Source of the DNA: Acidobacteriota bacterium
GTDB taxonomy: Bacteria > Acidobacteriota > Thermoanaerobaculia > Multivoradales > Multivoraceae
Direction of reading: 5' to 3'
Length of the DNA: 64,000 nt
Assembly (NCBI GenBank): GCA_003388555.1
Contig: QQVD01000044.1
Coordinates: 62,001-126,000, forward strand
Positions 1,115 through 14,447 of this stretch are shown here, in pieces. Numbering within the stretch: position 1 is the first letter of the stretch; each line of letters begins with the position of its first letter. A program made the translations under genes and the position numbers. The notes beneath the pieces are model-generated. The model made no database searches. It had not been told where the DNA came from and worked only from the letters and a program-made list of their open reading frames with translations.

Positions 1115-3751
1115 TCAGCGCGACTCGGGAGCGGGTCGCGGCTCGCCCACCCGTCGAGTCAGGACCAACTTGGCGAAGGCGATCCACGAGAGCACCGGCT
1201 GACCGCCCCGGCGGCGCTGCTCGCCGATGCGGTAGCACTCCGCCCACTGGGCGCCGAGGATGCGCCAGGCGTCGAGGATCCCGTGGCGGCGGTCGTACAT
1301 GTGGGCGGCCTCGGAGGTGACCCCGTTGATCTCGATCAGGGTGATCTCACGGCCCGACCGGAGACTCTCGACGTCGGGGACCTTGAGGTCGAGTCTGCCG
1401 AAGTCGAAGCCGGGGAGACGGTCGGCGATCTCTCCGATCGCGGCGTGCAGCTCGGGGGTCGCGTGCTCGCAGACGTCGACGAAGATGGTTCCCCTGTTGT
1501 GCGCACCGATGTCGACGAGCACGACCTTCTCGCCAGCGTCGGGGATGCGGCGGTGCGCGTCGGGATGCTCGTTGCGGTACTTGTGCAGCAGTGCGACGGC
1601 GCGCGCGTCGTCCAGGATCAGTCGCTCGAGGGTGCGGCGGCCGTCGCCTTCGACGACCGGACGGCGCTTCTCGTGGATCGAGAGGATCGTGCCCTCCGCG
1701 TCGTCGGGACCGCGCGACCAGAAGACGCCGTACTCGGCGCCGCCGACGTACTCCTGGACCAGAGTGGCGGGCCGCGGCCGCGGAGGGCCCTCGAAGTAGG
1801 CGTGGGCCTCCTCCAGCGAGTGCACCACGCGGACGTCTCGCCCGCGCTCGCCGCGATCCGGCTTGAGCACCAGCGGGAAGTCGAGATCGTGCTCGACGGT
1901 GAACCGCTCCACAGCGCGCATCCCCTGCTCGGGTGAGACGCCGCCGTCGATGCGGCGCCACCTCGGCAGGAACGACTCGCCGCCCCGCAGGCCCTCGAGG
2001 ATGGCGCTCTTCGACTCGCCGACGAAGCCGCCGGCCGGGATCGCCGGGTTCACCGCGGTGAACAGCAGCAGATCGCGGCGCCTGAGCCCTTCGTACAGCA
2101 TCCTCAGGATCACCGGCGGATAGACCAGCCACCACGGCCAGAACTCCCAGTGACGGATGCGCTGCCAGCGTCCGATGGCGCGGCGCCTGCCGGCGTGGGT
2201 GAGCAGCGGCAGGACCAGCTTGCGCACCGACCAGATGAGGAGCGCGAGGAGCAGTGCCGCGATCAGCAGCCTCGCACGCAGCCCCTCGAGCTGAGGCAGC
2301 AGCGAGCGCCCGAGGTGCGCCGAGATCCAGACGACCGGAGGAGTCCACAGCGCCCCGGCGATCGCGAAGTAGAGCAGGAACCGCGGGCCGCGCGTGCGCA
2401 GCACGCCCGCGGCGAGGTTGGTGGGCAGCCTCGCTCCGGGCAGGAAGCGGGACAGCAGCACCATCACCGCGCCGCGGCGACGCAGCCAGCGCGAGCTCTC
2501 CTCGAGCGCCTCGTCCGAGATCCACCAGCGCAGCGGCGGCCGCCGCACGGCGGCGCGACCGAAGGTCCGGCCGATCCAGAAGAGCAGCAGGTCGCCCAGC
2601 AGGATGCCGGCGTAACACGCGGCGATCGCCGCGATCAGCGACAGTCGGCCCTGCGCCACCAGAACGCCCGAGCCGACACAGGTCAGGTCCTCGCTGATCA
2701 GGGTGGAGAGGGCGATCAGCACCAGCATCACCAGCAGGGCCGGGCCGCTCCACGGCGGGATCGCGCCGCGATCGAAGCCGCGCGCCGCCTCCGCGAGCCT
2801 CGACGGCGAGGCGTCCCTTCGCAGCGGCGCCTCGCCCCGCTCGACCCGGTCGAAGAAACCACGCAGGTGGGCGGCGACGGCGTCGGGGTCGGTGAAGAGG
2901 AAGAAGTGGCTGTCGTCGCGCAGCACGAGCTCGCTCTGCGGAACCAGACGGTGGTGCTCGAGCGCCGCCTGGGCCGGAACCAGGAAGTCGTTCTCGCCGT
3001 GCACGATCAGGGTCGGACCCGGCCAGCGCCGCAGGATGCGGCGCAGCGGACGCTGGTCGGTGTCGTAGAAGTTGCGGGCGTACTCGACGCTCAGCATGCC
3101 GCGGTCGAGAGCACCGAAGTGCGGCACCAGCCAGGTCAGGGCGCGCAGTCCCCAGAGCTGCACCGCGTGCACCAGGCGGTTGAGGGTGTAGTCACCGAGC
3201 AACTCGAGCTCCTGCACGCCGATCGCCGACACCAGGGTCAACGAGGAGACCCGCTGCGGCGCCCGGTCGGCGACGTGCAGCGCGACGCCGCCGCCCATGC
3301 TGAAGCCGACCAGGTGGGCACTCTCGATCTCCAGCGCGTCGAGGAACTGGAGCAGGTAGTCGGCGTGCGCCGCGATCGAGTAGTCGGGGACGTGCCGCGT
3401 CGAGTGCCCGAACCCCGGCAGGTCGGGCACCAGGACTGGCCGCTGCGTTGCCAGGAGCGGCGCCAGCTCGTCGAAGTTCGACGCCGCGCCCGGTGAGCCG
3501 TGCAGCAGCACCACGGGGATGGCCGAGCCTCCTGCCGCACCGGCCGCCTCCTCCGGTGCGGAGCGGTAGTAGCTCACCGCGACCGCCTCCCGGCGTCGCG
3601 TCAGGTCGCGGTCGACGGCGCGCAGCTCGATGCTCTGGGCGCCTGCCGGCAGCTGCGGTGGGCTGCCGGCGCGATGCCAGCGCACCGCGGTCGAGGCGGC
3701 CAGGGCGACGACGTAGAGGAGCAGCGCGGCGCGCCGCAGATCGAGTGTCAA
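1115..3751 (-). CDS. three-module fusion: alpha/beta hydrolase + DedA (SNARE-associated) membrane domain + ATP-grasp
   Basis: An 878-residue protein with three recognisable modules. Residues ~75-305 are an alpha/beta hydrolase: oxyanion HG at 83-85, nucleophile elbow GFSMGG with Ser151, acid Asp255 in HGEND, and His282 in DDSHFF. Residues ~335-515 are a DedA-type membrane domain with the family signature FLPGARLPTNLAAG (~437-450) and several hydrophobic helices. Residues ~560-850 are an ATP-grasp domain: Lys630 in LVLKPD, Glu667 in QEYVGG, and late metal ligands in GRLDLKV and LIEINGVTSEA. An N-terminal hydrophobic helix (LLLYVVALAAS) anchors it. The start is TTG, overlapping the stop of the acyltransferase gene (TTGA). 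It probably transports or modifies a lipid or acyl-amino compound, but the substrate is unknown. Confidence 0.82.
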   Translation of the reverse strand: MTLDLRRAALLLYVVALAASTAVRWHRAGSPPQLPAGAQSIELRAVDRDLTRRREAVAVSYYRSAPEEAAGAAGGSAIPVVLLHGSPGAASNFDELAPLLATQRPVLVPDLPGFGHSTRHVPDYSIAAHADYLLQFLDALEIESAHLVGFSMGGGVALHVADRAPQRVSSLTLVSAIGVQELELLGDYTLNRLVHAVQLWGLRALTWLVPHFGALDRGMLSVEYARNFYDTDQRPLRRILRRWPGPTLIVHGENDFLVPAQAALEHHRLVPQSELVLRDDSHFFLFTDPDAVAAHLRGFFDRVERGEAPLRRDASPSRLAEAARGFDRGAIPPWSGPALLVMLVLIALSTLISEDLTCVGSGVLVAQGRLSLIAAIAACYAGILLGDLLLFWIGRTFGRAAVRRPPLRWWISDEALEESSRWLRRRGAVMVLLSRFLPGARLPTNLAAGVLRTRGPRFLLYFAIAGALWTPPVVWISAHLGRSLLPQLEGLRARLLIAALLLALLIWSVRKLVLPLLTHAGRRRAIGRWQRIRHWEFWPWWLVYPPVILRMLYEGLRRRDLLLFTAVNPAIPAGGFVGESKSAILEGLRGGESFLPRWRRIDGGVSPEQGMRAVERFTVEHDLDFPLVLKPDRGERGRDVRVVHSLEEAHAYFEGPPRPRPATLVQEYVGGAEYGVFWSRGPDDAEGTILSIHEKRRPVVEGDGRRTLERLILDDARAVALLHKYRNEHPDAHRRIPDAGEKVVLVDIGAHNRGTIFVDVCEHATPELHAAIGEIADRLPGFDFGRLDLKVPDVESLRSGREITLIEINGVTSEAAHMYDRRHGILDAWRILGAQWAECYRIGEQRRRGGQPVLSWIAFAKLVLTRRVGEPRPAPESR

Positions 3752-4662
3752 CTGGCGCCCGTCGAGACGGCCGGACCGTCGCGGCCACTGGAGCCGCGCT
3801 CCCCCGGCGACGCCGCCTCGCCGGCGTCGACGACGTGGCGCGGACGCGGATCGTGTGGACTGTGCGGCTCGTAGCCGACCGTCGGTTCGAAGACGCCGGC
3901 GACCGCCTGCTCGAGCTGGCGCGCCAGCTGTTTACGGTCGGCGCTGCGCAACGGTTCGCGTCCGAAGCGAAGCGTCGCCTCGAAGCGCCGCAGCCCGAGC
4001 AGGTTGGGGAGGTGAGGAAACAGAGGCATGTCGCCCCACCAGCAGATCGCCAGGAAGGCGGGCGGGTCGTCGCGGGTGGTGCGGTAGTGCACCGCGCCGT
4101 AGTGCACCGGCAGGTTCGCCGCCGCCGCCGGCGCCAGCAGCGGGGCGCGGAACGGCAGCAGCGCGTGGCCGCTGGTGCTGGTCCCCTCGGGGAAGAGGAT
4201 CACCGTGTCGCCGGCATCGAGTGCCCGTTGCATCTCGGCCGCGACCCTGGCGGTGTCGCGCCGCGAGCCGCGGTCGACGAAGAGCACGTCGGCGGAGCGG
4301 CAGATCCAGCCGATCAGCGGCCAGTCGCGGATCTCGGCCTTGGCCACGAAGCGGCCGGGAACCTCTCCCGCGAGCACCAGGATGTCGGCGTAGCTGAGGT
4401 GGTTGCTGACGAAGAGCCCCGGGCCGGCCGGCCCGGGGCCGAGGACGCGCCGGCGCCCGCCGGCGACGTAGAGGGTCCAGCGGCCCCAGTGGCGCATCAC
4501 CCAGCGGCGCCACCCGGGCCGGTGGCGCGGCAGCGGCGTCAGCAGCAGCTTGCCGACCAGCAGGGTCGTCCACCAGAAGAGGGTGACCGCGAGCACCGCG
4601 GGCCCGCGCAACCAGGTGCGGACCCGGGCGCCGGCCGGGGCGCCGGAGGGAACCGAGCCCAT
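3748..4662 (-). CDS. lysophospholipid/lyso-ornithine-lipid acyltransferase (PlsC family)
   Basis: A 1-acylglycerol-phosphate O-acyltransferase-fold membrane enzyme of 304 residues. It carries the HX4D catalytic motif (NHLSYAD), the second block with Arg in FVDRGSRRDT, and the FPEGTSTSG acyl-acceptor block. A hydrophobic N-terminal segment (AVLAVTLFWWTTLLVGKLLL) would anchor it at the inner membrane. The ATG at 4662 overlaps the TGA of the upstream GNAT-type acyltransferase (ATGA). The pairing of an OlsB-like N-acyltransferase with a PlsC-family O-acyltransferase is the organisation of ornithine-lipid synthesis: OlsB makes lyso-lipid and OlsA adds the second acyl chain. The OlsA role is inferred from that pairing. 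General phosphatidic-acid synthesis is an alternative. Confidence 0.85.
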   Translation of the reverse strand: MGSVPSGAPAGARVRTWLRGPAVLAVTLFWWTTLLVGKLLLTPLPRHRPGWRRWVMRHWGRWTLYVAGGRRRVLGPGPAGPGLFVSNHLSYADILVLAGEVPGRFVAKAEIRDWPLIGWICRSADVLFVDRGSRRDTARVAAEMQRALDAGDTVILFPEGTSTSGHALLPFRAPLLAPAAAANLPVHYGAVHYRTTRDDPPAFLAICWWGDMPLFPHLPNLLGLRRFEATLRFGREPLRSADRKQLARQLEQAVAGVFEPTVGYEPHSPHDPRPRHVVDAGEAASPGERGSSGRDGPAVSTGAS

Positions 4663-5516
4663 CAATCGAAGAACAGGGAGCGCGCCCGCGGCGACAGGTC
4701 TTCGAGGTCCAGCACGGTGAGGAAATCGATGCAGCGGAACTCGCGGTCGATCGCCGGCGGACTGCAGATCTTCGAGCCGTAGCGCAGGTAGGTGCCGAAG
4801 AGACGTGGGATCTCGATCTCGGGCCGCTGCGCCAGCGCCGCGGCGTCCGGCGCCACGCCGCCGAGCTCCGGCGCCCGGTCGCAGCGCAGCTCCGGCAGCG
4901 GCGGCAGCTGCAGGTGGCTGTAGAAGCCCCCGTCGCGCAGCTGCTGCTCGGCCTTCAGTCCGTCGACCGGGTCCTGGCTGGTGATCGAAGAGCAACCGAA
5001 GAGGTAGCGCTTGCCGGTGCTCACGGCGTAGGCCGCCAGCCCCTTCCAGAGCAGGAAGAGGACCATCCGGTTGCGGTGGTCGCGCGCGATGCAGGCGCGG
5101 CCGAGCTCGACGCTGCGGCAGCGCATCTCCTCGGGCATCCCGGTGAGGTCGAACTCGCCCTCGGAGTAGAAGCCCGTATGGGCATCGGCCATCTCGACCG
5201 TCTGCATGCGGTAGGTGCCGACGATCTCGTCGTTGCGGGTGTCGTGCACCATGAGGTGGTGCCAATGCAGATCGAAGGCGTCGGCGTCGCGGCCCGTGAC
5301 GTAGGACTCCGCCAGCCCCTCGCCGAGCTCGAGGTTGAACACCTCGAAGCGAAGTCGCAGGGCGTCGTCGAGCTCGCCGAGCGAACGGGCGAAGCGCGCC
5401 TCGTAGTGACCCGCCTGCAGGGTCCCCGTCGGCAACAGGTCGGCGAAGGTCGGGTAGACCGGGTCGCGCTGCGGAGTGCGCGGACTCGTGCCGGAGGGGG
5501 TGGTTTGGCGGTCCAT
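4662..5516 (-). CDS. OlsB-like GNAT N-acyltransferase (ornithine-acyl-ACP type)
   Basis: A 284-residue GNAT-fold protein of the type that transfers 3-hydroxyacyl groups from acyl-ACP to an amino acid (OlsB), also annotated as exosortase-associated acyltransferase. Visible features are the RLRFEVFNLELGEG block near residue 55, HDTRNDEIVGTYRMQT (strands 3-4), CRSVELGRACIARDHRN (the acyl-donor-binding strand/helix) and FGCSSITSQDP. It is the first gene of the lipid operon: its stop overlaps the PlsC start, and the hydrolase-DedA-ATP-grasp gene follows. The ATG at 5516 was chosen over an in-frame ATG at 5552. Neither has a strong Shine-Dalgarno, so the start is uncertain. The acceptor (ornithine or another amino acid) cannot be read from sequence. 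Confidence 0.8.
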   Translation of the reverse strand: MDRQTTPSGTSPRTPQRDPVYPTFADLLPTGTLQAGHYEARFARSLGELDDALRLRFEVFNLELGEGLAESYVTGRDADAFDLHWHHLMVHDTRNDEIVGTYRMQTVEMADAHTGFYSEGEFDLTGMPEEMRCRSVELGRACIARDHRNRMVLFLLWKGLAAYAVSTGKRYLFGCSSITSQDPVDGLKAEQQLRDGGFYSHLQLPPLPELRCDRAPELGGVAPDAAALAQRPEIEIPRLFGTYLRYGSKICSPPAIDREFRCIDFLTVLDLEDLSPRARSLFFD

Positions 5517-5681
5517 GAGGAGCTCGGGATTCGCTGGCCGGGATTCTGGCATACCGCCGTGAGAGGAATGAGAAGGCCGGTGATCGGCTGGGAGTCCTGC
5601 TGCCGCCTGCCACCCATACCGCGCCGTCAGGGGTGGCGACGTCCCGGAGTCAAGGCCCGGGCGGCGGGTCGCCACGGCTCC

Positions 5682-6500
5682 TCAGAGCGCGTCGATGCTC
5701 GCGGCGGCGGTGCGCAGCAGCCAGAGGTCGCCCTCTCTCGTCACCCGCCCGCGCACTCTGACCGGCACCCCGACCCGATCGAGGAGCTCGCTCGAGAGAG
5801 GCTCGCCGGCCTCGCCACGGAGTACGTAGAGCCGTCCTCCATGTTCCTCCCTGGTGAGCAGGGCGGCCGGCACTCCGCCGCTGATGCAGCGCACCGCGCA
5901 GGCCCGGTGGCGTGCGCCGCGCCCCGGCTTCATCACGCCGAGGAGACACTTCGAGTCGACGATCTCGCCGATCAGCTCGACGACCTGCGTACCGGTGCCG
6001 TCCGGCTCCGGCCGGGGCTCAGCGCTGGCGCTGGAGGCCAGCGCGGCCTCTTGCGGTCGGCGAGCCTGCGGCGGGCCGGAGATCTCGACCATCGAGCCGG
6101 CTGGCGAATGCACCAGTGTGCCGCTCAGGACGACCCGCCGGCCGGCGAACGGATCGAGCAGCTGCTCGGCTCCGTGTTTTCCCGGGCGCGAGACGAGACT
6201 GGGCCCCGGCATGGCTGGCAGCCGCTCGCCGTCGACCGGCTGCAGCCCGCCGAGCACCAGGGCCCCCGAGGCCTCGAGCACGGTGGCCTCGAGCGTGCGC
6301 ACGCGCCCGTACTCGAAGACTCCGGGGTCCGACGATGGCTGGGCGGCGGCGAGGGCCAGTGCCAGGATCGCGGCCGCGGTGACGCTGACCGACGCGGCGC
6401 TGCGCAGGAAGCGGCGCTGCGCCGGACTGCGCCGGCTGGAGTAGCCGATGAAGAAGTCGGCTCCGCCCGAGGGCCGCTCGGTCGTCTGCTCGTCGCTCAT
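5682..6500 (-). CDS. membrane-anchored conserved protein with a Cys/His motif domain, function unknown
   Basis: A 272-residue protein. The N-terminal cytoplasmic part (~35 residues) has a possible amphipathic FFIGYSSRR stretch and is followed by one hydrophobic helix (VTAAAILALALAAA). The rest should lie outside. A distinctive block near residues 180-215 contains GEIVDSKC, GVMKPG, then H-x2-CA-x2-C and GGVPAALL. The three Cys and one His look like a metal or redox site. I have a general impression of this motif in proteins near periplasmic molybdoenzyme or Rieske genes, but cannot name the family. It is the last gene of the four-gene run starting at 8006. Its ATG overlaps the stop of the ferric-reductase/Rieske gene (TGATG), so it probably serves the same redox unit. 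Confidence 0.65.
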   Translation of the reverse strand: MSDEQTTERPSGGADFFIGYSSRRSPAQRRFLRSAASVSVTAAAILALALAAAQPSSDPGVFEYGRVRTLEATVLEASGALVLGGLQPVDGERLPAMPGPSLVSRPGKHGAEQLLDPFAGRRVVLSGTLVHSPAGSMVEISGPPQARRPQEAALASSASAEPRPEPDGTGTQVVELIGEIVDSKCLLGVMKPGRGARHRACAVRCISGGVPAALLTREEHGGRLYVLRGEAGEPLSSELLDRVGVPVRVRGRVTREGDLWLLRTAAASIDAL

Positions 6501-7609
6501 CAGCTCTCCACCGCGGCCGGGCCCGCCGCCGGCGCATCGTGGTGGATCGCCGGCTCGCTGTGGGTGCCCGGCGCCAGCGGTCTCGGGTCGACCAGGACGA
6601 GGTCGCCGTCGAGGCGCACCCGGAAGGTCGGGATCTTCTCGGTGAACGGCGGCGGCGAGGCCCCGTCCTCTGGCCGGTACTGATAGCCGTGCCAGGGACA
6701 GGTGATGCAGCCGTCGACGATCCTGCCCTCGCCGAGGGGGCCGTTCTGGTGGCGACAGACGTTCGACACGGCTGCGATGCGCTGGCGCCCGTCCACGTCG
6801 CGGTAGCGGAAGACGGCCACTCGCTCGCCCGCCAGCACCACGAGGGTGGCGCGCTCCTCGGGGATCTCCCCGACCCGGCAGACGGCGACGAAACCGTCGT
6901 CCCGTGACGCCATGCCGCCGCCCCCGGCAGCCTGCGGCGCCTCGCGGTCGGCGGCCACCTCACGGCTCCCGGCCACCAGGTGCAGCGTCGCGAGGACGGC
7001 GAAGCCGATCGGCAGCCCCGCCCGCAGCACCGGCTGGCCGGGATCCTGGAGCGCGCCCAGGGCGACGTGCAGCACCACCAGGCCGTAGGCGACGTAGACG
7101 CCCATGTGCAGTGCTTTCCACACCGGCGCGGTGAGGTTGGCCAGCCAGAAGTCGTGGCTGGTCGCCGCCATCAGGAAGAGCCAGAGCAGCGCCAGCAGAC
7201 CGAGCAGCTCGAACGGGAAGCGGCTCTGGGTGACCAGGCTGCCGTGGCTGGAGAGGGCGCTGACCAGGGGATGCACGTCGCCCTGGGCGTGGAACTGCAC
7301 CAGGGCGAAGCCGCCGTGGGCCAGCGCCAGCAGGAACATCGTCACGCCGAGGTGCCGCCGGTTGTAGAGCAAGGGCAGGAAGCGGCTGTCGAGGCGCGCC
7401 AGCGGGCCGATCGCCAGGATCAGGTGCAGCAGCACCAGCGCACAGGTCCCGAAGCCGCGGATCAGCTGGGTCTCGATCGTGGTCGACGGATCGCGGGTCA
7501 GCCCGAGCGCGACGAAGCAGCCCAGGTACAGCGCCACCGCGAGCGCCAGCACGGCATCGTGGCGCTTCTTGTACGGCGTCCACAGGACGACTCGATATCC
7601 GGCGCTCAC
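6500..7609 (-). CDS. ferric-reductase-like heme membrane domain fused to a C-terminal Rieske [2Fe-2S] domain
   Basis: About 369 residues. The N-terminal two thirds hold roughly six hydrophobic helices with conserved-looking His, including LLHLILAIGPLARL, YNRRHLGVTMFLLALAHGGFA, HDFWLANLTAPVWKALHMGVY and GLVVLHVALGAL. This resembles the ferric-reductase-like/MsrQ heme-b domain, in which paired His bind heme. A Gly-rich linker leads to a Rieske domain with the full ligand set: CRH in NVCRHQNGPLGEG and CPWH in CPWHGYQY. It probably passes electrons between the quinone pool or heme and the Rieske cluster. The GTG at 7609 was chosen because it overlaps the stop of the preceding 33-residue gene (GTGA). 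The downstream gene overlaps its stop. Confidence 0.83.
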   Translation of the reverse strand: MSAGYRVVLWTPYKKRHDAVLALAVALYLGCFVALGLTRDPSTTIETQLIRGFGTCALVLLHLILAIGPLARLDSRFLPLLYNRRHLGVTMFLLALAHGGFALVQFHAQGDVHPLVSALSSHGSLVTQSRFPFELLGLLALLWLFLMAATSHDFWLANLTAPVWKALHMGVYVAYGLVVLHVALGALQDPGQPVLRAGLPIGFAVLATLHLVAGSREVAADREAPQAAGGGGMASRDDGFVAVCRVGEIPEERATLVVLAGERVAVFRYRDVDGRQRIAAVSNVCRHQNGPLGEGRIVDGCITCPWHGYQYRPEDGASPPPFTEKIPTFRVRLDGDLVLVDPRPLAPGTHSEPAIHHDAPAAGPAAVES

Positions 7610-7707
7610 GGCGGGCTCCCGAGCAGCGCCCAGAACAGCAGCGCTGCGACCGCCGCGGTGCAGAGGACCCACGTCGCGAGGTGGCGGCGGCGCAGCGAGC
7701 GGATCAT
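7606..7707 (-). CDS. 33-residue single-pass membrane microprotein
   Basis: A tiny frame encoding a basic N-terminus (MIRSLRRRHLA) followed by one hydrophobic helix (TWVLCTAAVAALLFWALLG) and a PP end. Its ATG overlaps the stop of the upstream gene (ATGA) and its TGA overlaps the GTG of the ferric-reductase/Rieske gene. This double overlap and the typical positive-inside topology argue that it is a real gene rather than chance. By analogy with single-helix accessory subunits of cytochrome complexes it may stabilise the membrane heme protein; that is inference. Confidence 0.55.
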   Translation of the reverse strand: MIRSLRRRHLATWVLCTAAVAALLFWALLGSPP

Positions 7708-8006
7708 CGGCGGCCCAGCCCGGCTGGGGCGTCGCGGCGCGGCGGCGGGCTGCCGGCGACGTCGCGGTGCGCGTTGCGCTCCTCGGGCGGCCCCGAGCGC
7801 CGCAGCCAGCGCCGCAGGAAGAGCGGCCAGAGCGCCGCCAGCCCGGGGATCCACAGCAGTCGGACCGCGAGTCCGGCGCCTCGCGCCGCCGGATCGATGC
7901 GCTCGATGCCGCCGAGAGTCCAGCGCAGCGCCCAGATCGCGCCCACCAGCAGGTAGAGCTGGAGGATCCAGACCACGGTCGGTGCGAGGGGCTCCAGGAG
8001 GCTCAT
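7704..8006 (-). CDS. small membrane protein, first gene of the ferric-reductase/Rieske operon
   Basis: A 100-residue protein with two hydrophobic segments (VVWILQLYLLVGAIWALRW near residues 11-29 and AVRLLWIPGLAALWPLFLRRWL near 47-68) and a hydrophilic, Pro/Arg-rich C-terminus. No family is recognised. The ATG at 8006 was chosen because no plausible coding pattern exists before it; upstream lies a divergent control region with a 9-bp tandem repeat. It heads a run of four tightly overlapping genes (8006 down to 5682), so it is probably a small subunit or assembly factor of the same membrane redox unit. Confidence 0.6.
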   Translation of the reverse strand: MSLLEPLAPTVVWILQLYLLVGAIWALRWTLGGIERIDPAARGAGLAVRLLWIPGLAALWPLFLRRWLRRSGPPEERNAHRDVAGSPPPRRDAPAGLGRR

Positions 8007-8302
8007 CTCAGGCACACCCGACGCGGGTCGGAGGCACGCGTCGCGTTTCGATCTGCGGCCGCTCCACCTGCGCGGCGCCTGGCGGAGTCGGCGCCGCGTC
8101 GTTCCGTGTCGACCGTTTCGAGGTTTCGACCGTGTCGACCGTGTCGACCGTGTCGAGAGAGTGCGATCCGGTGGAATCCGATGATGCCGCGCGAGCGGAG
8201 GGAGAATAGACCACCCGTCGATCTTCGCCGAACCGATGGCCGACACGGTGACCCGGACACCGTGACGTCGGCTTCCCCCGTGACGTGCATGCTGGAGACA
8301 TC
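8007..8302. promoter_or_regulatory. divergent intergenic region between the two halves of the Rieske island
   Basis: About 296 bases separate the minus-strand membrane operon from the plus-strand Rieske-enzyme genes, so promoters for both should lie here. No clear -35/-10 pair or operator was picked out. The region holds a 9-bp tandem repeat (listed separately). Confidence 0.4.
8126..8156. repeat. 9-bp tandem repeat TCGACCGTG
   Basis: Three perfect head-to-tail copies of TCGACCGTG (8126-8134, 8135-8143, 8144-8152) end in a partial TCGA. A degenerate copy lies upstream at 8109-8117. The array is inside the divergent promoter region of the Rieske genes. A related 9-mer (CACGGTGGT on the opposite strand sense) is repeated at 14402-14435. 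Confidence 0.8.
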
Positions 8303-9928
8303 GTGAATCGAACCGCCCTGTTCGCGCTCGACGAGATCGAGCCTCTCGAACCACGCTACGCGCTGGTGGCCGGAGTGGATCTGGTCGTCGTCCGCTACCG
8401 GACCGACGACGGCGCCGATCAGGCCTCGGTGCTCTACGGCCGTTGCCTGCACCGCGGCGCCCTGATGGCCGACGGGCACATCGACGGCGACAACCTCATC
8501 TGCGGCGTGCACGGCTGGGACTACCGCTACCGGACCGGAGTCAGCGAGTACGACAACAGCGAGGTGCTGCACAGGTTCGGGTCGTGGATCGAGGAGGGGC
8601 GGATCTGGGTCGACGACGACGAGATCGCGGCGTGGGCACGGGAGAACCCCCAGCCCTACGATCGCGACGCCTACCTCGGTCTGTACCAGGACGTGCACGG
8701 CGCGCCGGAGGAGCCTCACAACGGCCTGATCCAGCAGCTGGCGCGTGAAGGGCTCACCAAACTCGGGCACCACGGTCCGACCGCCGCCATGGGCGTACCA
8801 CGCCAGCAGCTGCCGAGCTGGGACGATCTGCAGATCGTCACCGCCCAGCTCGCCCGCAGGCCGCTGCTCGACGATGCCGAGGTGGCGACCAGCGTGGTGG
8901 TCGGTCCGCGCGCCGCCAAACCCCTCCAGCTGGCGATTCCGTTGCTGGTCTCCGACATGAGCTTCGGGTCGCTGTCGCCCGAGGCCAAGGTCGCCCTGGC
9001 GCGCGGTGCCGAGCTCGCCGGAACCGGCATCTGCTCGGGCGAAGGCGGCATGCTCGACGACGAGCAGGCGAGCAACTCGCGCTACTTCTACGAGCTCGCG
9101 TCGGCCCGTTTCGGCTTCAGCCTCGACAAGGTCGCCCGCTGCCAGGCCTTTCACTTCAAGGGCGGTCAGGCGGCGAAGACCGGCACCGGCGGACACCTGC
9201 CCGGCGAGAAGGTGACCGAGCAGATCGCCGAGGTGCGCGGGCTGCGACCGGGCGAGCCGGCGATCAGCCCGGCGACCTTCCCCGATCTGGCGACCGCGGC
9301 CGACTTCCGGGCGCTCGCCGACCAGGTGCGTGAGCGCACCGGCGGCATCCCGGTCGGCTTCAAGATCTCGGCGCAGCACATCGAGGACGACATCGACTTC
9401 GCGCTCGAGGCGTCGGCCGACTACGTGATCCTCGACGGTCGAGGTGGCGGCACCGGTGCGGCGCCGCTGATCTTCCGCGACCACATCTCGGTGCCGACGC
9501 TGGCGGCGCTGCCGCGGGCGAGGCGACACCTCGATCGGGCCGCGGACGGAGACGTGACGCTGATCGTGACCGGCGGCCTGCGCGTGCCGGCCGACTTCGT
9601 CAAGGCGCTCGCTCTCGGCGCCGACGCCATCGCTCTCGCCAACTCGGCGATCCAGGCGATCGGCTGTCTCGGGATGCGCGCCTGCCACACCAACAACTGT
9701 CCGGTCGGCATCGCGACCCAGAAGCAGCACCTGCGCCAGCGCCTGGTGGTCGAAGCCTCGGCCAAGCGCCTGCACAACTTCTTCTCCGCTTCGGTCGAGC
9801 TGATGCAGGTGATGGCGCGTGCCTGCGGTCACGACTCCTTGAGCGGCTTCGATCAGAGCGATCTGGTCTCGTGGAAGCGCGAGATCGCCGATCTGGCCGG
9901 AGTGCGATTCGCCGGCGCTCGCGACTGA
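8303..9928 (+). CDS. Rieske [2Fe-2S] domain fused to a glutamate-synthase-like FMN/Fe-S domain
   Basis: 541 residues. Residues ~10-110 form a Rieske domain with ligands C48-x-H50 (GRCLHRGA) and C67-x2-H70 (CGVHGWDY). Residues ~160-530 match the FMN-binding alpha/beta barrel of glutamate synthase: SDMSFGSLSPEAKVALARGAE, GICSGEGGM, KTGTGGHLPG, and VILDGRGGGTGAAP (phosphate/FMN site). The Fe-S cysteines are C455, C461 and C466 in CLGMRACHTNNCPVG. The glutaminase and GXGXG domains of classical GltB are absent, so it is a stand-alone GltS-like oxidoreductase fed by a Rieske cluster. The GTG at 8303 has GGAG seven bases upstream; a GTG at 8285 is in frame. It is followed 36 bases later by the Rieske-ThDP gene. 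Its substrate is unknown. Confidence 0.86.
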   Translation: MNRTALFALDEIEPLEPRYALVAGVDLVVVRYRTDDGADQASVLYGRCLHRGALMADGHIDGDNLICGVHGWDYRYRTGVSEYDNSEVLHRFGSWIEEGRIWVDDDEIAAWARENPQPYDRDAYLGLYQDVHGAPEEPHNGLIQQLAREGLTKLGHHGPTAAMGVPRQQLPSWDDLQIVTAQLARRPLLDDAEVATSVVVGPRAAKPLQLAIPLLVSDMSFGSLSPEAKVALARGAELAGTGICSGEGGMLDDEQASNSRYFYELASARFGFSLDKVARCQAFHFKGGQAAKTGTGGHLPGEKVTEQIAEVRGLRPGEPAISPATFPDLATAADFRALADQVRERTGGIPVGFKISAQHIEDDIDFALEASADYVILDGRGGGTGAAPLIFRDHISVPTLAALPRARRHLDRAADGDVTLIVTGGLRVPADFVKALALGADAIALANSAIQAIGCLGMRACHTNNCPVGIATQKQHLRQRLVVEASAKRLHNFFSASVELMQVMARACGHDSLSGFDQSDLVSWKREIADLAGVRFAGARD

Positions 9929-9964
9929 GCCCGGCAGGAGACACGCCCGAGAGGAGGGACTCCG

Positions 9965-11980
9965 ATGCAAGGCGAGCAGGAGCAGGGACACCAGCGCAGC
10001 GATGACCATGAGGCGGACGCACTCGTCTGGCATCGCATCGCGGGCCTCGACGAGCTGCCCGAGGGACGCGTCAAGACGGTCGTCGCGGGCACCACCTCGA
10101 TCTGCCTGACCCACTACGAGGGCCGCTACGGCGCCCTCGACAACCGCTGCCCGCATCAGGGTGGACCCCTGGGCGAGGGCTCGATCGAGAAGGGCTGGCT
10201 GCGTTGCCCGTGGCACGGCTGGGACTACTGTCCCCACACCGGCCAGTCGCCAGGCGGCTACGACGAGACCGTGCGCACCTTCCCCCTCGAGGTGCGTGAA
10301 GACGGCATCTGGGTCGGCATCGCCGCCGAGAAGCCGCACCAGCAGACGGTGAGTGACGTCATGGTCGAGACGATGGTCAACTGGGGTGTGCGCTGGGTCT
10401 TCGGCATGGTGGGACACTCCAACCTGCCGCTCGCCGACGCGGTGCGGCGCGCCACCGAGCGCGGCGACCTCGGCTACGTCGCCATCCGCCACGAGGGAGC
10501 TGCCGCCTTCGCTGCCTCGGCCTACGGCAAGCTGACCGGGACGCCGGCCGCCTGCCTGACCATCGCCGGTCCGGGAGCGACGAATCTGCTCACCGGTCTT
10601 TGGGACGCGAAGGTCGATCGGGCGCCGATCCTGGCGCTGACCGGGCAGGTCGACACCCAGGTGCTCGGGCCTGGCGCCTTCCAGGAGATCGACCAGAACA
10701 AGGCGTTCTCGGGCGTCGCCCGTTTCTCGCAGCCGGTGCAGCGCGACTCGCGCCACGTCGAGTTGATGAATCTGGCGTGCAAGAGCGCCCTGCTCGAGCG
10801 CGACGTCGCGCACCTCGTCTTCCCCGACGAGGTGCAGGGACTGCCGGTCCCCGACGCGCGCCCGGGCGGCCCAGAGGGACGGCTGACCCAGCGCGACATC
10901 GCCCCGCCCGCGGCGCAGCTCGAGCGGGCGGCCGAGATGGTCCGCAGGGCCGAGCGGCCGGTGATCATCGTCGGCCACGGAGCGCGCTTCTCGATGCCAG
11001 ATATCACCCGTCTCGCCGAGCAGCTCGGGGCGCCGGTGGTGACCACCTTCAAGGGCAAGGGGTTGATCTCCGACCACCATCCCCTGGGCTGTGGCGTGCT
11101 CGGCCGCAGCGGCACGCCGATCGCCAGCTGGTTCATGAACGAGTCGGATCTGCTGCTGGTGTTCGGCGCGTCGTTCTCGAACCACACCGGCATCACCACC
11201 CACAAGCCGATCGTCCAGGTCGACTACGACCCCATGGCGCTGGGCAAGTTCCACCGCGTCGACGCGCCGGTGTGGGGCGAGATCGCGGTGACCTGCGGTC
11301 TGCTGCACGAGGCCCTGTTCGGTGCCGGCGCCGGCGCGCCGAAGGCGAGCGACCAGCGCGGCGAGGTGGCGGAGCGGTGGGCGATCTGGCGGGCCGAGAA
11401 GGAGAGCCGCGAACACGACCGCTCGGGCCGCGGCATCAGCTCGGCATCGGTGTTCGCGGCGATGAACCGCCACACTCCTCCCAACGCCATCCTCGCCGTC
11501 GACGTCGGCAACAACACCTACTCGTTCGGGCGCTACTTCGAGTGCCGCGAGCACTCGGTGCTGATGTCGGGCTACCTGGGCTCGATCGGGTTCGGCTACC
11601 CCGCAGCGTTGGGCGCCTGGGCGGCAACCCGCAGCGACGAGCGGTTCGCCGGTCGTCCGGTGGTCGCGATCACCGGCGACGGCGGCTTCGGCCAGTACCT
11701 GGCCGAGGTGACCACGGCGGTGCACCACGACATGGACATCACCCACCTGCTGCTCAACAACTCCGAGCTCGGCAAGATCTCGAAGGAGCAGCGGGCGATC
11801 GAGCTCGATGTCTGGCAGACCTCGCTGACCAATCCGAACTTCGCCGACTTCGTCAGCAGCTGCGGCGGAGTGGGCATTCGGGTCACCCAGGTCGACGAGC
11901 TCGACGAGGCGCTCGAACGCGCCTTCGCGCATCGGGGCCCGGTCACGGTCGAGGTGATGACCGACGCTGTGCTGGTGTGA
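9965..11980 (+). CDS. Rieske [2Fe-2S] domain fused to a ThDP-dependent (pyruvate oxidase/acetolactate synthase-like) enzyme
   Basis: 671 residues. Residues ~20-115 are a Rieske domain: C62-x-H64 (CPHQGGPLGEG) and C81-x2-H84 (CPWHGWDY). Residues ~125-665 are a complete ThDP enzyme of the POX/ALS type. The catalytic Glu177 sits in RHEGAAAFAASAY, AGPGATNLLTGL follows, a middle domain contains RPVIIVGHGARF, and the ThDP/Mg motif starts GDG at 571-573 (GDGGFGQYL) and ends NNSELG ~27 residues later. Such enzymes decarboxylate or condense 2-oxo acids. A fused Rieske cluster suggests an oxidative reaction that passes electrons on to the neighbouring GltS-like or membrane Rieske protein; that is inference. 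I know of no characterised enzyme with this architecture. Confidence 0.86.
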   Translation: MQGEQEQGHQRSDDHEADALVWHRIAGLDELPEGRVKTVVAGTTSICLTHYEGRYGALDNRCPHQGGPLGEGSIEKGWLRCPWHGWDYCPHTGQSPGGYDETVRTFPLEVREDGIWVGIAAEKPHQQTVSDVMVETMVNWGVRWVFGMVGHSNLPLADAVRRATERGDLGYVAIRHEGAAAFAASAYGKLTGTPAACLTIAGPGATNLLTGLWDAKVDRAPILALTGQVDTQVLGPGAFQEIDQNKAFSGVARFSQPVQRDSRHVELMNLACKSALLERDVAHLVFPDEVQGLPVPDARPGGPEGRLTQRDIAPPAAQLERAAEMVRRAERPVIIVGHGARFSMPDITRLAEQLGAPVVTTFKGKGLISDHHPLGCGVLGRSGTPIASWFMNESDLLLVFGASFSNHTGITTHKPIVQVDYDPMALGKFHRVDAPVWGEIAVTCGLLHEALFGAGAGAPKASDQRGEVAERWAIWRAEKESREHDRSGRGISSASVFAAMNRHTPPNAILAVDVGNNTYSFGRYFECREHSVLMSGYLGSIGFGYPAALGAWAATRSDERFAGRPVVAITGDGGFGQYLAEVTTAVHHDMDITHLLLNNSELGKISKEQRAIELDVWQTSLTNPNFADFVSSCGGVGIRVTQVDELDEALERAFAHRGPVTVEVMTDAVLV

Positions 11981-12220: not shown

Positions 12221-12718
12221 ATGTCCAAGCTGAAGGAGTTCGACTTCCCGGTCGAGGCGAGCCACATCCTGATGTTCGCGCGCGCCGTCGGCGACGCCAA
12301 CCCGGTCTACGCCGACCCTGGCTCGGAGGCCGCCCGCGCGGCCGGCGGCGTGCTCGCTCCGCCGACCTTCTGCCAGGCCTCGGCGCAGTTCGATCCCGAC
12401 TACTTCCTGCGCCCGAAGATCGGCGGCAAGTGGTTCGGGTCGGGCGCTGAACCGACCGGCGATCCCGAGTACCTGAAGGGGGGAGTCGGGTCCGGTCTGC
12501 ACGCCGAGCAGCACTTCGAGTACCACCGTCATCCGCGCCCCGGAGATCGCCTCACCGCCACCGTCAGGTCGGGCAAGACGTGGGAGAAGCAGGGTCGTCG
12601 TGGCGGCACGCTCAGCTTCAGCGAATCGATCACCGAGTACCGCGATCAGGACGGCGAGTTGGTGGTCACCGCCCGCTCGATCGGGGTCAAGACCTCACAG
12701 GTCGTCGAGCAGGAGTAG
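12221..12718 (+). CDS. MaoC-like dehydratase, N-terminal-type subunit (HadA-like)
   Basis: 165 residues matching the FAS1-like/MaoC N-terminal-type hot-dog fold: FARAVGDANPVYAD near residue 20, then GGVLAPPTFC, and a long central helix leading to HAEQHFEYHRHPRPGD. The strand GRRGGTLSFSESITEYRDQDGELVV follows. In (3R)-hydroxyacyl-ACP/CoA dehydratases of the HadAB type this subunit pairs with a catalytic MaoC subunit, and the next gene supplies one only 7 bases downstream. The start is supported by GGAGGTGA just before the ATG. Its likely role is dehydration of 3-hydroxyacyl thioesters in fatty acid elongation or an acyl-CoA degradation route; the thioester carrier cannot be told from sequence. 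Confidence 0.82.
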   Translation: MSKLKEFDFPVEASHILMFARAVGDANPVYADPGSEAARAAGGVLAPPTFCQASAQFDPDYFLRPKIGGKWFGSGAEPTGDPEYLKGGVGSGLHAEQHFEYHRHPRPGDRLTATVRSGKTWEKQGRRGGTLSFSESITEYRDQDGELVVTARSIGVKTSQVVEQE

Positions 12719-12725
12719 AGAAGTC

Positions 12726-13148
12726 ATGGCACTCGAGGCAGGCGCAGTGAAGGTCGGCGACCGCTACGAAGTGGTGGTCGTCGAGGACCTCAAGCGGACC
12801 CAGATCGTGCAGTACGCGGGAGCGTCCGGCGACTACAACCCGCTGCACACCGACGAGATCTTCGCCACCGAGGTGGCCGGCTACCCGAAGGTCTTCGCCC
12901 ACGGCATGCTGACCATGGGGCTCACCGGCCGCATGGTCACCGACTACGTCGGCGACGGGGCGCTGAAGAAGTACGGCGTGCGCTTCAAGGCGCAGGTGTG
13001 GCCGGGCGACACGCTGACCGCGAGCGCCACCGTCGAGGCGGTGCGCGAGGAGGACGGCGAGGCGGTGGTCGACCTGGCGATCTCGACCGTCAACCAGGAC
13101 GGGGTCGAGGTCATCTCGGGCAGCGCCACCGCGCGGCTGGCGGATTGA
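12726..13148 (+). CDS. MaoC-like (R)-hydratase/dehydratase catalytic subunit (HadB-like)
   Basis: 140 residues with the hydratase-2 motif: YAGASGDYNPLHTDE contains the catalytic Asp and His (D-x4-H), followed by KVFAHGMLTMGLTGRMV, the typical hot-dog helix and Gly-rich turn. RFKAQVWPGDTLTA is the conserved strand after it. With the preceding gene it should form an asymmetric HadAB-type dehydratase. The start ATG at 12726 lies 7 bases after the partner's stop. The stop overlaps the TTG start of the copper-chaperone-like gene (TTGA), although no functional link to copper is evident. Confidence 0.85.
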   Translation: MALEAGAVKVGDRYEVVVVEDLKRTQIVQYAGASGDYNPLHTDEIFATEVAGYPKVFAHGMLTMGLTGRMVTDYVGDGALKKYGVRFKAQVWPGDTLTASATVEAVREEDGEAVVDLAISTVNQDGVEVISGSATARLAD

Positions 13149-13739: not shown

Positions 13740-14447
13740 TCAGGAGTTGGCGCGCCAGAAGGCAGCCACCGCGGCACGGGCCTCCCGATCGATCGCCTCG
13801 CGGCAGCCGGTGGCGTCGCCGATCGCTCCGGAGACGCCGCCGCCGAAGCGCACTTCCAGGTTCGCGGCGTTGACGATCACCGGGCAGCCGTGATCCGAGG
13901 CACGGGTGATCGAGCCGCGCACGACCCCGAGCCCGGGGTCGTCGGCCTCGTCGACCGCCGCGAGGAGGAGCTCGTGCTCCGAGACGCCGAACGCCACGAG
14001 GACCGCCCGCAGGTCGCCTCGGTGGCGAGCGCAGCAGCGTGCGATGTGGCGACTGAGCTGGTCGGGCGTGATCGGCGGCCTCACTCGACCCGCGAAGATG
14101 CCGCCGGCGAGGAACGGCAGGGCGAGCGCTCCGTGAGCGTGCGCCGCCGCCAGTGCGAAGGCGTTGGCGACGGCCTGCTCGATCGAGTCGCGGGTGGGAT
14201 CGAAGCCGTCGCCGCGCCGGCCCGCGGCGCCGGTCGCGGCGTGCACCAGACCGACGATGCCGCCCTGCGCGAGCTCTCCGGATCCGGTCCAGACCGCGGC
14301 GCCCAGCGGCGCCATCGCGAGCTCCGCGAGCCGGGGATCGGTCGGGCAACCGGACGCGGCGACGACGGCCGTGGAACGGTAGCCCGGCCTCGCGCCTCCC
14401 TCACGGTGGTCACGGTGGTCACGGCGGTCACGGTGAGCGGGGCCCAT
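13740..14447 (-). CDS. macro-domain protein with apparently circularly permuted motif order
   Basis: 235 residues. The C-terminal ~60 residues hold what is normally the start of a macro (ADP-ribose-binding) domain: VVRGSITRA, then CPVIVNAANLE and FGGGVSGAIG. The N-terminal part holds what normally comes last: GGIVGLVHAATG (like VIHTVGP), an ALAAAHAHG helix, ALPFLAGGIFAG (like the FP-ISTG-xYG loop) and LRAVLVAFG. The order is therefore back to front, as expected for a circular permutation. Macro domains bind or hydrolyse ADP-ribose derivatives. ATG 14447 was chosen because CCGGAG lies 7 bases before it. Residues 6-16 (HRDRRDHRDHR) are encoded by a 9-bp tandem repeat. It converges on the PCuAC-like gene. 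Confidence 0.72.
   Translation of the reverse strand: MGPAHRDRRDHRDHREGGARPGYRSTAVVAASGCPTDPRLAELAMAPLGAAVWTGSGELAQGGIVGLVHAATGAAGRRGDGFDPTRDSIEQAVANAFALAAAHAHGALALPFLAGGIFAGRVRPPITPDQLSRHIARCCARHRGDLRAVLVAFGVSEHELLLAAVDEADDPGLGVVRGSITRASDHGCPVIVNAANLEVRFGGGVSGAIGDATGCREAIDREARAAVAAFWRANS
14402..14435. repeat. 9-bp tandem repeat CACGGTGGT
   Basis: Units lie at 14402-14410, 14411-14419, 14420-14428 (one change, CACGGCGGT) and a partial at 14429-14435. It is inside the predicted 5' end of the macro-domain gene, where it encodes an RDH-type tripeptide repeat. It resembles the 9-mer array at 8126-8156, read on the other strand. Confidence 0.8.

Follow-up and report, generated by a model that had tools for sequence, protein, structure and literature searches.

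Three Rieske fusions in a divergent gene cluster of an Acidobacteriota bacterium: a candidate modular link between soluble enzymes and a membrane electron-transfer unit

A cluster of six genes, three of which encode Rieske [2Fe-2S] fusion proteins, lies in a 64,000-nucleotide stretch of DNA (the window) from an Acidobacteriota bacterium (GenBank assembly GCA_003388555.1, contig QQVD01000044.1, positions 62,001 to 126,000). The cluster falls into two units (Table 1). The minus strand carries s99, s33, FRR and CysM, with overlaps of 4 bases between s99 and s33, 4 bases between s33 and FRR, and 1 base between FRR and CysM, and the plus strand carries GLS and TDP, separated by 36 bases. These overlaps and the close spacing are most simply read as a pair of divergent operons. 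On the basis of homologue alignments, FRR most likely starts at the GTG at 7609 and GLS at the GTG at 8303; the longest FRR open reading frame (ORF; 390 aa) begins at 7672, upstream of the start shared by its homologues.

Table 1. Features of the Rieske cluster and the adjoining gene, with positions counted in the window
Feature	Position	Strand	Description
CysM	5682..6500	-	Predicted membrane-anchored protein with an OB-like domain and an invariant Cys/His/Met motif
FRR	6500..7609	-	369 aa; ferric-reductase/MsrQ-like membrane domain and C-terminal Rieske domain
s33	7606..7707	-	33 residues; predicted one-helix membrane protein, basic N-terminus R-x2-R-R-R-H-x3-W
s99	7704..8006	-	100 aa; small predicted membrane protein, two helices
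Divergent intergenic region	8007..8302	.	296 bases between s99 and GLS
GLS	8303..9928	+	541 aa; N-terminal Rieske domain and glutamate-synthase FMN/[3Fe-4S] core
TDP	9965..11980	+	N-terminal Rieske domain (residues 22-94) and PoxB/pyruvate-oxidase-like ThDP enzyme
OlsB-like N-acyltransferase	4662..5675	-	Adjoins CysM in many relatives; below OlsB cut-offs; not counted as part of the cluster

The original prediction, made from the DNA letters and their ORFs, had described three Rieske domains with complete ligand sets within about 5.3 kb, fused to a heme-type membrane module, a glutamate synthase (GltS)-like enzyme and a thiamin diphosphate (ThDP) enzyme, with two small membrane proteins and a Cys-motif protein completing a divergent layout. 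All of these components were recovered. FRR matches Ferric_reduct (PF01794, 45.8 bits) and Rieske (PF00355, 55.7 bits), GLS matches Rieske (39.7 bits) and Glu_synthase (PF01645, 295.5 bits), and TDP matches Rieske (60.0 bits) and TPP_enzyme N, M and C (109-115 bits each), every one above the Pfam cut-offs of 20-30 bits. The C-x-H...C-x2-H pattern of PF00355 is present in all three Rieske domains, which together span 5.3 kb, and its ligands are invariant in the aligned sequences: C48/H50...C67/H70 in 24/24 for GLS, C62/H64...C81/H84 in 22/22 for TDP, and C306/H308...C325/H328 (numbered in the 390-aa ORF) in 53/53 for FRR, one of 54 sequences having been removed by an identity filter. The genome holds seven PF00355 matches above cut-off, three in the cluster and four elsewhere. 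A chance clustering of motifs was ruled out, as all three domains are Pfam-grade, conserved and recur together, and so were Rieske oxygenases, whose catalytic domain is absent from the Pfam matches of FRR, GLS and TDP.

In GLS, the Rieske domain (about residues 7-79) precedes a core that comes closest, among solved structures, to GltS large chains. The [3Fe-4S] pattern C-x5-C-x4-C (C455/C461/C466) is invariant in 24/24 sequences, and a glutaminase (amidotransferase) domain is not among the Pfam matches. The GltS stretch AKPGEGGQLP is replaced by AKTGTGGHLP in the same 24/24 sequences, and GLS may therefore use a substrate other than 2-oxoglutarate; a literature search on the substrate residues of GltS yielded no paper. 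A full-length GltB-type ORF (C48, 1562 aa) is also encoded in the same genome.

The head of GLS varies among its relatives. N-termini were read in 15 relatives whose alignment started after the Rieske domain, with L121, L123, L125, L127 and L130 left out. Seven carry a tandem CDGSH head at 66-71% core identity, recognized by Pfam zf-CDGSH in Vibrio fortis (L215) and by eye in L114-L119. Five carry a rubredoxin-like two-CxxC head at 43-49% core identity (L120, L122, L124, L131 and Monoglobus L219), assigned by eye, with RUBY_RBDX scoring 23.0 bits in L219, below the Pfam cut-off of 26.5; the remaining three (L126, L128, L129) are headless. Since CDGSH or rubredoxin-like domains take the position of the Rieske domain in these relatives, the comparison marks the GLS head as a putative exchangeable one-electron relay. 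The CDGSH-GltS flavin mononucleotide (FMN) fusion has already been published as a "type 5 CISD" (described in an excerpt of PMC3174974; mentioned in part of PMC5859297), and full-text literature searches found neither the Rieske-headed nor the rubredoxin-headed form of the GltS core.

TDP joins its Rieske head to the three-domain ThDP architecture (TPP_enzyme N, M and C), in which E177, which we take to be the ThDP glutamate, is invariant in 22/22 sequences. Its best solved relative by sequence is Escherichia coli PoxB (3eya/3ey9, E 9e-60). By structure, PoxB is the third entry (Z 38.5, root-mean-square deviation (rmsd) 3.0, 512 aligned residues), below two HKA synthase entries (Z 39.8 and 39.6). 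The GAR and TFKGKG stretches of TDP resemble LpPOX in the alignment and may correspond to its flavin adenine dinucleotide contacts. The C-terminal tail of PoxB binds membrane lipid and helps quinone access. This tail is absent from TDP, the match stopping at residue 526 of the 572 in PoxB, six residues short of the TDP C-terminus, and TDP would therefore need another electron exit.

Such an exit could be offered by the minus-strand proteins. The membrane part of FRR has about six helices, whose borders were placed by eye, and its histidines H107, H119, H173, H189 and H202 are invariant in 53/53 sequences, with H231 conserved in 51. Lys and Arg average 3.5 in loop L2 versus 0.7 in L3 and 0.5 in L5, and the mean net charge is +2.8 at the N-terminus, +2.6 in L2 and +1.4 in L4, with -1.3 in L3 and -0.4 in L5. 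From these loop charges, both FRR termini probably lie inside, which would place the C-terminal Rieske domain in the cytosol. Against the MsrQ model NF003831, FRR scores 40.9 bits, below the cut-off of 130, and its Rieske head matches the AndAb, HcaC and NirD models, likewise below their cut-offs. CysM had no match at E 0.01 in Pfam and NCBIfam searches. Its motif D-x-K-C-x2-G-x-M-x-P-x5-H-x2-C-A-x2-C includes C185, M190, H198, C201 and C205, and the positions invariant in 32 sequences are G19, K108, G178, D182, K184, C185, G188, M190, P192, H198, C201, A202 and C205. An AlphaFold2 model (mean pLDDT 85.6) shows a helix of transmembrane length (residues 26-53) followed by beta domains, and places the motif in helices of the last domain, which resembles the oligonucleotide/oligosaccharide-binding (OB) fold. 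The basic N-terminal stretch and single helix suggest that this domain lies outside. Compared with OB-fold proteins, residues 168-272 gave a best Z of 8.3 (rmsd 3.5, 80 aligned residues) to a single-stranded DNA-binding protein, a score near the middling level, where the best Z without a clear match is typically 7-8; a DNA-binding role was ruled out, the fold being common and the protein membrane-anchored. In s99, the stretches IDP and PG..ALWPL..RW are conserved.

Across genomes, the three fusions are distributed together more often than expected by chance. Among 60 relatives (own genome included), counted by hand with partial genes taken in, GLS and TDP occur together in 21, TDP only in 11, GLS only in 3 and neither in 25 (p 2e-5). 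A phylum sample of 297 genomes held FRR in 28, TDP in 16 (after exclusion of four with 32-36% identity among the 20 core matches at E 1e-70) and GLS in 12, the last restricted to the Rieske type out of 27 core matches, two of the 12 being incomplete (G135, which keeps the head, and the headless G222, of unclear type). For TDP and FRR, the counts of both, TDP only, FRR only and neither were 15/1/13/268 (Fisher p 9e-17), and 9/1/9/268 (p 1e-11) once an over-sampled genus was collapsed; TDP genomes thus keep FRR in 15/16 cases, even where the genes lie apart. The corresponding counts were 8/4/20/265 for GLS and FRR and 9/3/7/278 for GLS and TDP, and all three fusions were found in 8 of the 297 genomes. 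A further test used 50 named GLS-positive genomes, drawn from the 80 GLS loci described below with contigs >25 kb and L165 left out; 26 held TDP and 24 held FRR, with counts of 19/7/5/19 (p 3e-4). Judged by gene content, TDP, GLS and FRR are associated non-randomly.

The minus-strand partners of FRR are more constant still. CysM lies beside FRR in 24/24 FRR-positive genomes of the named set and in 27/28 of the phylum sample, a count that takes in the window's own genome and where the sole FRR without a CysM neighbor (L290) stops at a contig edge. s99 lies beside FRR in 23/24 (loci L220-L243) and 26/28, respectively, and an s33-like small ORF was found upstream of FRR in 14/33 pattern-scanned loci, some of them close relatives, a 15th match (L224) having been judged spurious. 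By this conservation, s99-FRR-CysM, with s33 in many cases, is a near-invariant predicted membrane unit.

Gene neighborhoods were gathered by a scan of the GTDB collection that gave at least 592 pattern matches, of which 576 were confirmed and the best 80 kept as GLS loci; 3 kb are available on both sides in 59/80, so that absences are upper bounds. These best 80 loci hold TDP in 30, FRR in 19 and both in 9, and in 20 of the 30 TDP follows GLS directly on the same strand, no more than 300 bp downstream. FRR lacks a CysM neighbor in two loci (L146, L210), both of which are cut off at a contig edge. Record titles, many of them metagenome-assembled genomes and some possibly misbinned, name Alpha- and Gammaproteobacteria, Myxococcota, Acidobacteriota, Planctomycetota, Nitrospina relatives, Marinimicrobia, Poribacteria, Candidatus Lucifugimonas and others. 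The order GLS-TDP-s99-FRR-CysM occurs in a single run in Labrenzia sp. THAF82 (L150) and Roseibium denhamense JCM 10543 (L202). Haloarchaeal plasmids of Salinirubellus (L212) and Halorarius (L214) encode GLS and a Rieske-headed TDP, separated in Halorarius by an antiporter and other genes, and the plasmid stretch examined in Halorubrum (L213) encodes GLS only. In two Rhizobium plasmids (L216, L217), s99-s33-FRR-CysM is accompanied, beyond three genes, by a ThDP protein without a Rieske head. Near FRR-CysM on one of these plasmids also lie a chlorite-dismutase-family gene (L216:10120-10677), a sigma factor gene and genes for DUF1109 and NrsF proteins. A third Rieske-headed enzyme appears in a genome without a TDP or GLS match (G174), where a Rieske-FMN_red fusion (L294:4918-6012) stands tail to tail with CysM-FRR. 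This fusion is found in the 297 genomes as seven full-length copies, one copy in two pieces (G081) and one headless copy (G284), a count that omits three genomes with fragments or Rieske-part matches and one with FRR's own Rieske domain only; FRR is present in 4/9 of these genomes (G081, G174, G257, G319; p 0.006).

Other neighbors raise the question of whether the genes are grouped by a shared stress or salt regulon, with each Rieske domain sensing redox state for its own enzyme, and do not form a single chain. A Na+/H+ exchanger gene (checked by Pfam in one case) adjoins GLS or TDP in 18 of the best 80 loci, and an extracytoplasmic function (ECF) sigma factor with a small zinc-finger-like (H-x3-C-x2-C) partner, a possible redox regulator, is divergent from antiporter-GLS-TDP runs in two (L161:7639-8579 and L171:7591-8525). 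The ergothioneine pair egtB-egtD occurs in four (L137, L165, L177, L179), with scores above the NCBIfam cut-off in the two tested, L137 and L179, and merA lies near two haloarchaeal copies. Candidate egtB genes in L149 and L183 were rejected at 98 and 47 bits, respectively, against a cut-off of 360. Against this explanation, which we consider unlikely, all aligned copies keep full Rieske ligand sets, as electron transfer would require, the Rieske head is swapped for other electron-transfer domains, and FRR is retained in 15/16 TDP genomes of the phylum sample, even where the genes are apart. A DUF5996-like neighbor, below the Pfam cut-off, was seen in 11 of the best 80 loci. As none of the Na+/H+ exchanger, DUF5996-like, ergothioneine, ECF sigma or mercury-reductase genes is constant, naming a function from the neighborhood was ruled out.

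We favor a modular electron-transfer system with the Rieske [2Fe-2S] domain as the shared connector, a reading that we hold at roughly even confidence. In this scheme, the Rieske domain of FRR would face the cytosol, the conserved FRR histidines would hold b-type hemes, and the OB-like domain of CysM, with a predicted 3Cys-1His(-Met) site, would face the opposite side. GLS (FMN, [3Fe-4S]) and TDP, both taken as cytosolic, would interconvert an amino acid with its imino/2-oxo acid and oxidatively decarboxylate a 2-oxo acid, respectively, each sending single electrons via its own Rieske domain to that of FRR, from whose Rieske center and hemes they would cross the membrane to CysM and/or quinone. 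In the simplest joint pathway, GLS would oxidize an amino acid and TDP would then oxidize the resulting 2-oxo acid. The Rieske-FMN_red fusion beside CysM-FRR and the CDGSH and rubredoxin-like heads on GLS relatives suggest plug-like exchange of both catalytic cores and one-electron heads. The acceptor considered is a Rieske center of about -150 mV. For GltS, an excerpt of PMC8097209 gives -240 mV for FMN and -280 mV for [3Fe-4S]. Because potentials this low would allow transfer to such a Rieske center, the route from GLS/TDP through Rieske domains and FRR to CysM or quinone is favored, and electrons most likely move from enzyme to membrane.

Several points weigh against this scheme. Its chemistry, cofactors and contacts are all inferred from sequence, and the p-values overstate independence since the sampled genomes share ancestry. 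The charge rule is violated in FRR by the first outer loop L1 (net +0.3, 1.9 Lys/Arg) and by the stretch past the last helix (net -0.6). The adjacency of Rieske-FMN_red to FRR was seen in G174 only, the rubredoxin-headed relatives may be another enzyme because their core identity is only 43-49%, and the FRR membrane part and CysM were not found in the three haloarchaeal plasmid stretches, which alone were searched. FRR is missing at E 1e-30 in 7/26 TDP-positive named genomes. TDP and FRR are both absent nearby in 40 of the best 80 GLS loci and from 19/50 GLS-positive named genomes; by these counts GLS must also work alone or with other partners, and because of the 40 loci the set is modular rather than obligate, GLS and TDP looking like plug-ins. 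The 2-oxoglutarate/glutamate couple lies at about -0.12 V and would also allow Rieske-driven reductive amination. FRR occurs without TDP and GLS in 13/297 phylum genomes. The original prediction had proposed a joint electron chain from 2-oxo-acid chemistry to a membrane quinone or heme partner and named independent occurrence of the genes as evidence to the contrary. Such occurrence was found in part (TDP without GLS in 11/60, GLS without TDP in 3/60, FRR alone in 13/297): the non-random association of the three fusions is borne out, a single obligate chain is not supported, and the 2-oxo-acid coupling is putative.

The genomes with FRR alone would fit a proposal in which FRR-CysM is an independent MsrPQ-like unit for envelope repair or reduction, handing electrons from quinol or the cytosol to a thiol or metal protein of the periplasm, and in which GLS and TDP share its electron input. 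The MsrQ-like (though sub-cut-off) membrane part of FRR and the invariant C/H/C/C motif of CysM on the predicted outer side point the same way. TDP without FRR is seen in only 1/16 cases in the phylum (but 7/26 in the named genomes), and an MsrP-type molybdoprotein was not seen among the few Pfam-checked FRR neighbors or those in the window, although no systematic search was made; we regard this proposal as improbable. Reductive amination, for its part, is the basis of a reverse flow from quinol through FRR and the Rieske domains to GLS, which would use free ammonia in the manner of a glutaminase-less ferredoxin-dependent glutamate synthase, with TDP as a possible second donor in a pyridine-nucleotide-free dismutation that would oxidize one 2-oxo acid and aminate another. 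Known GltS cores reduce 2-iminoglutarate with ferredoxin/Fe-S electrons (same excerpt of PMC8097209), and the placement of TDP directly downstream of GLS in 20/30 linked loci would suit such a pairing. The altered AKTGTGGHLP motif makes 2-oxoglutarate a questionable substrate, the genome already has its full-length GltB-type ORF, and the step from quinol to Rieske would presumably be uphill, which leaves reverse flow a minority possibility, rather unlikely on balance. We tentatively propose, with somewhat less than even confidence, that s99-s33-FRR-CysM is an undescribed membrane electron hub, present in many bacterial phyla, whose cytosolic Rieske domain would be a universal socket for Rieske-headed enzymes (a GltS-like amino-acid/imino-acid enzyme, a ThDP oxidative decarboxylase, an FMN reductase) in parallel to reduced nicotinamide adenine dinucleotide (NADH) and ferredoxin, the soluble enzymes being haloarchaeal as well.

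Further features were recorded around the cluster. A 9-base tandem repeat, CCGTGTCGA x6, lies at 8104-8156, within the intergenic stretch that separates s99 from GLS, and a second, TCACGGTGG x3.9, at 14401-14435. A long ORF at 1115-3751 recurs beside OlsB-CysM-FRR in relatives, and in L195 a distant relative of it combines an alpha/beta hydrolase with a VTT (DedA-type) domain in one protein. Downstream of TDP, positions 12221-13148 hold two MaoC/FAS1-type dehydratase ORFs resembling HadA/HadB, for which no tblastn match was found in the loci of 40 relatives.

The cluster is real and conserved, its parts come from known families, and as a combination it is undescribed in the literature searched: full-text searches for the cluster or its fusions found no description, in agreement with the original prediction, which knew of no system of this composition. 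Rieske domains are known from bc complexes and oxygenase systems. Here they would act as a standard connector of soluble flavin and ThDP enzymes to a heme-type membrane protein, in what looks like an undescribed connection between the cell membrane and the chemistry of amino and keto acids; the set recurs in distant microbes. If this wiring is true, a widespread set of proteins named "glutamate synthase-related" and "thiamine pyrophosphate-binding" in plasmid records would join an unrecognized respiratory or redox-balancing route, and a role open to testing would follow for type 5 CISD proteins; the function of CISD proteins in general was called yet-to-be-understood in 2011 (excerpt of PMC3174974).

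Each component can be set beside a known system. Like the MsrQ/YedZ ferric-reductase family, FRR has a PF01794 heme-type membrane domain with conserved histidines; unlike it, FRR carries a fused Rieske domain, has CysM, s99 and s33 as partners, and falls under the MsrQ cut-off. The Rieske head itself matches, at sub-cut-off scores, NirD and the Rieske-type dioxygenase ferredoxins (AndAb, HcaC); these are free domains, whereas that of FRR is fused to a membrane protein. Relative to the pyruvate:quinone oxidoreductase PoxB of E. coli, TDP adds a Rieske head and drops the C-terminal tail. GLS shares the FMN barrel and the C-x5-C-x4-C [3Fe-4S] pattern with the GltS large chain and ferredoxin-dependent GltS (PDB 7mfm, 1ea0, 1llw) but lacks the amidotransferase domain, has an altered substrate-loop motif and brings its own Rieske donor/acceptor domain. 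Type 5 CISD resembles GLS in its GltS-like core, N-terminal one-electron [2Fe-2S] head and lack of a glutaminase, and GLS differs from it in that its head is of the Rieske type, where type 5 CISD has tandem CDGSH, and in its linkage to TDP and FRR-CysM.

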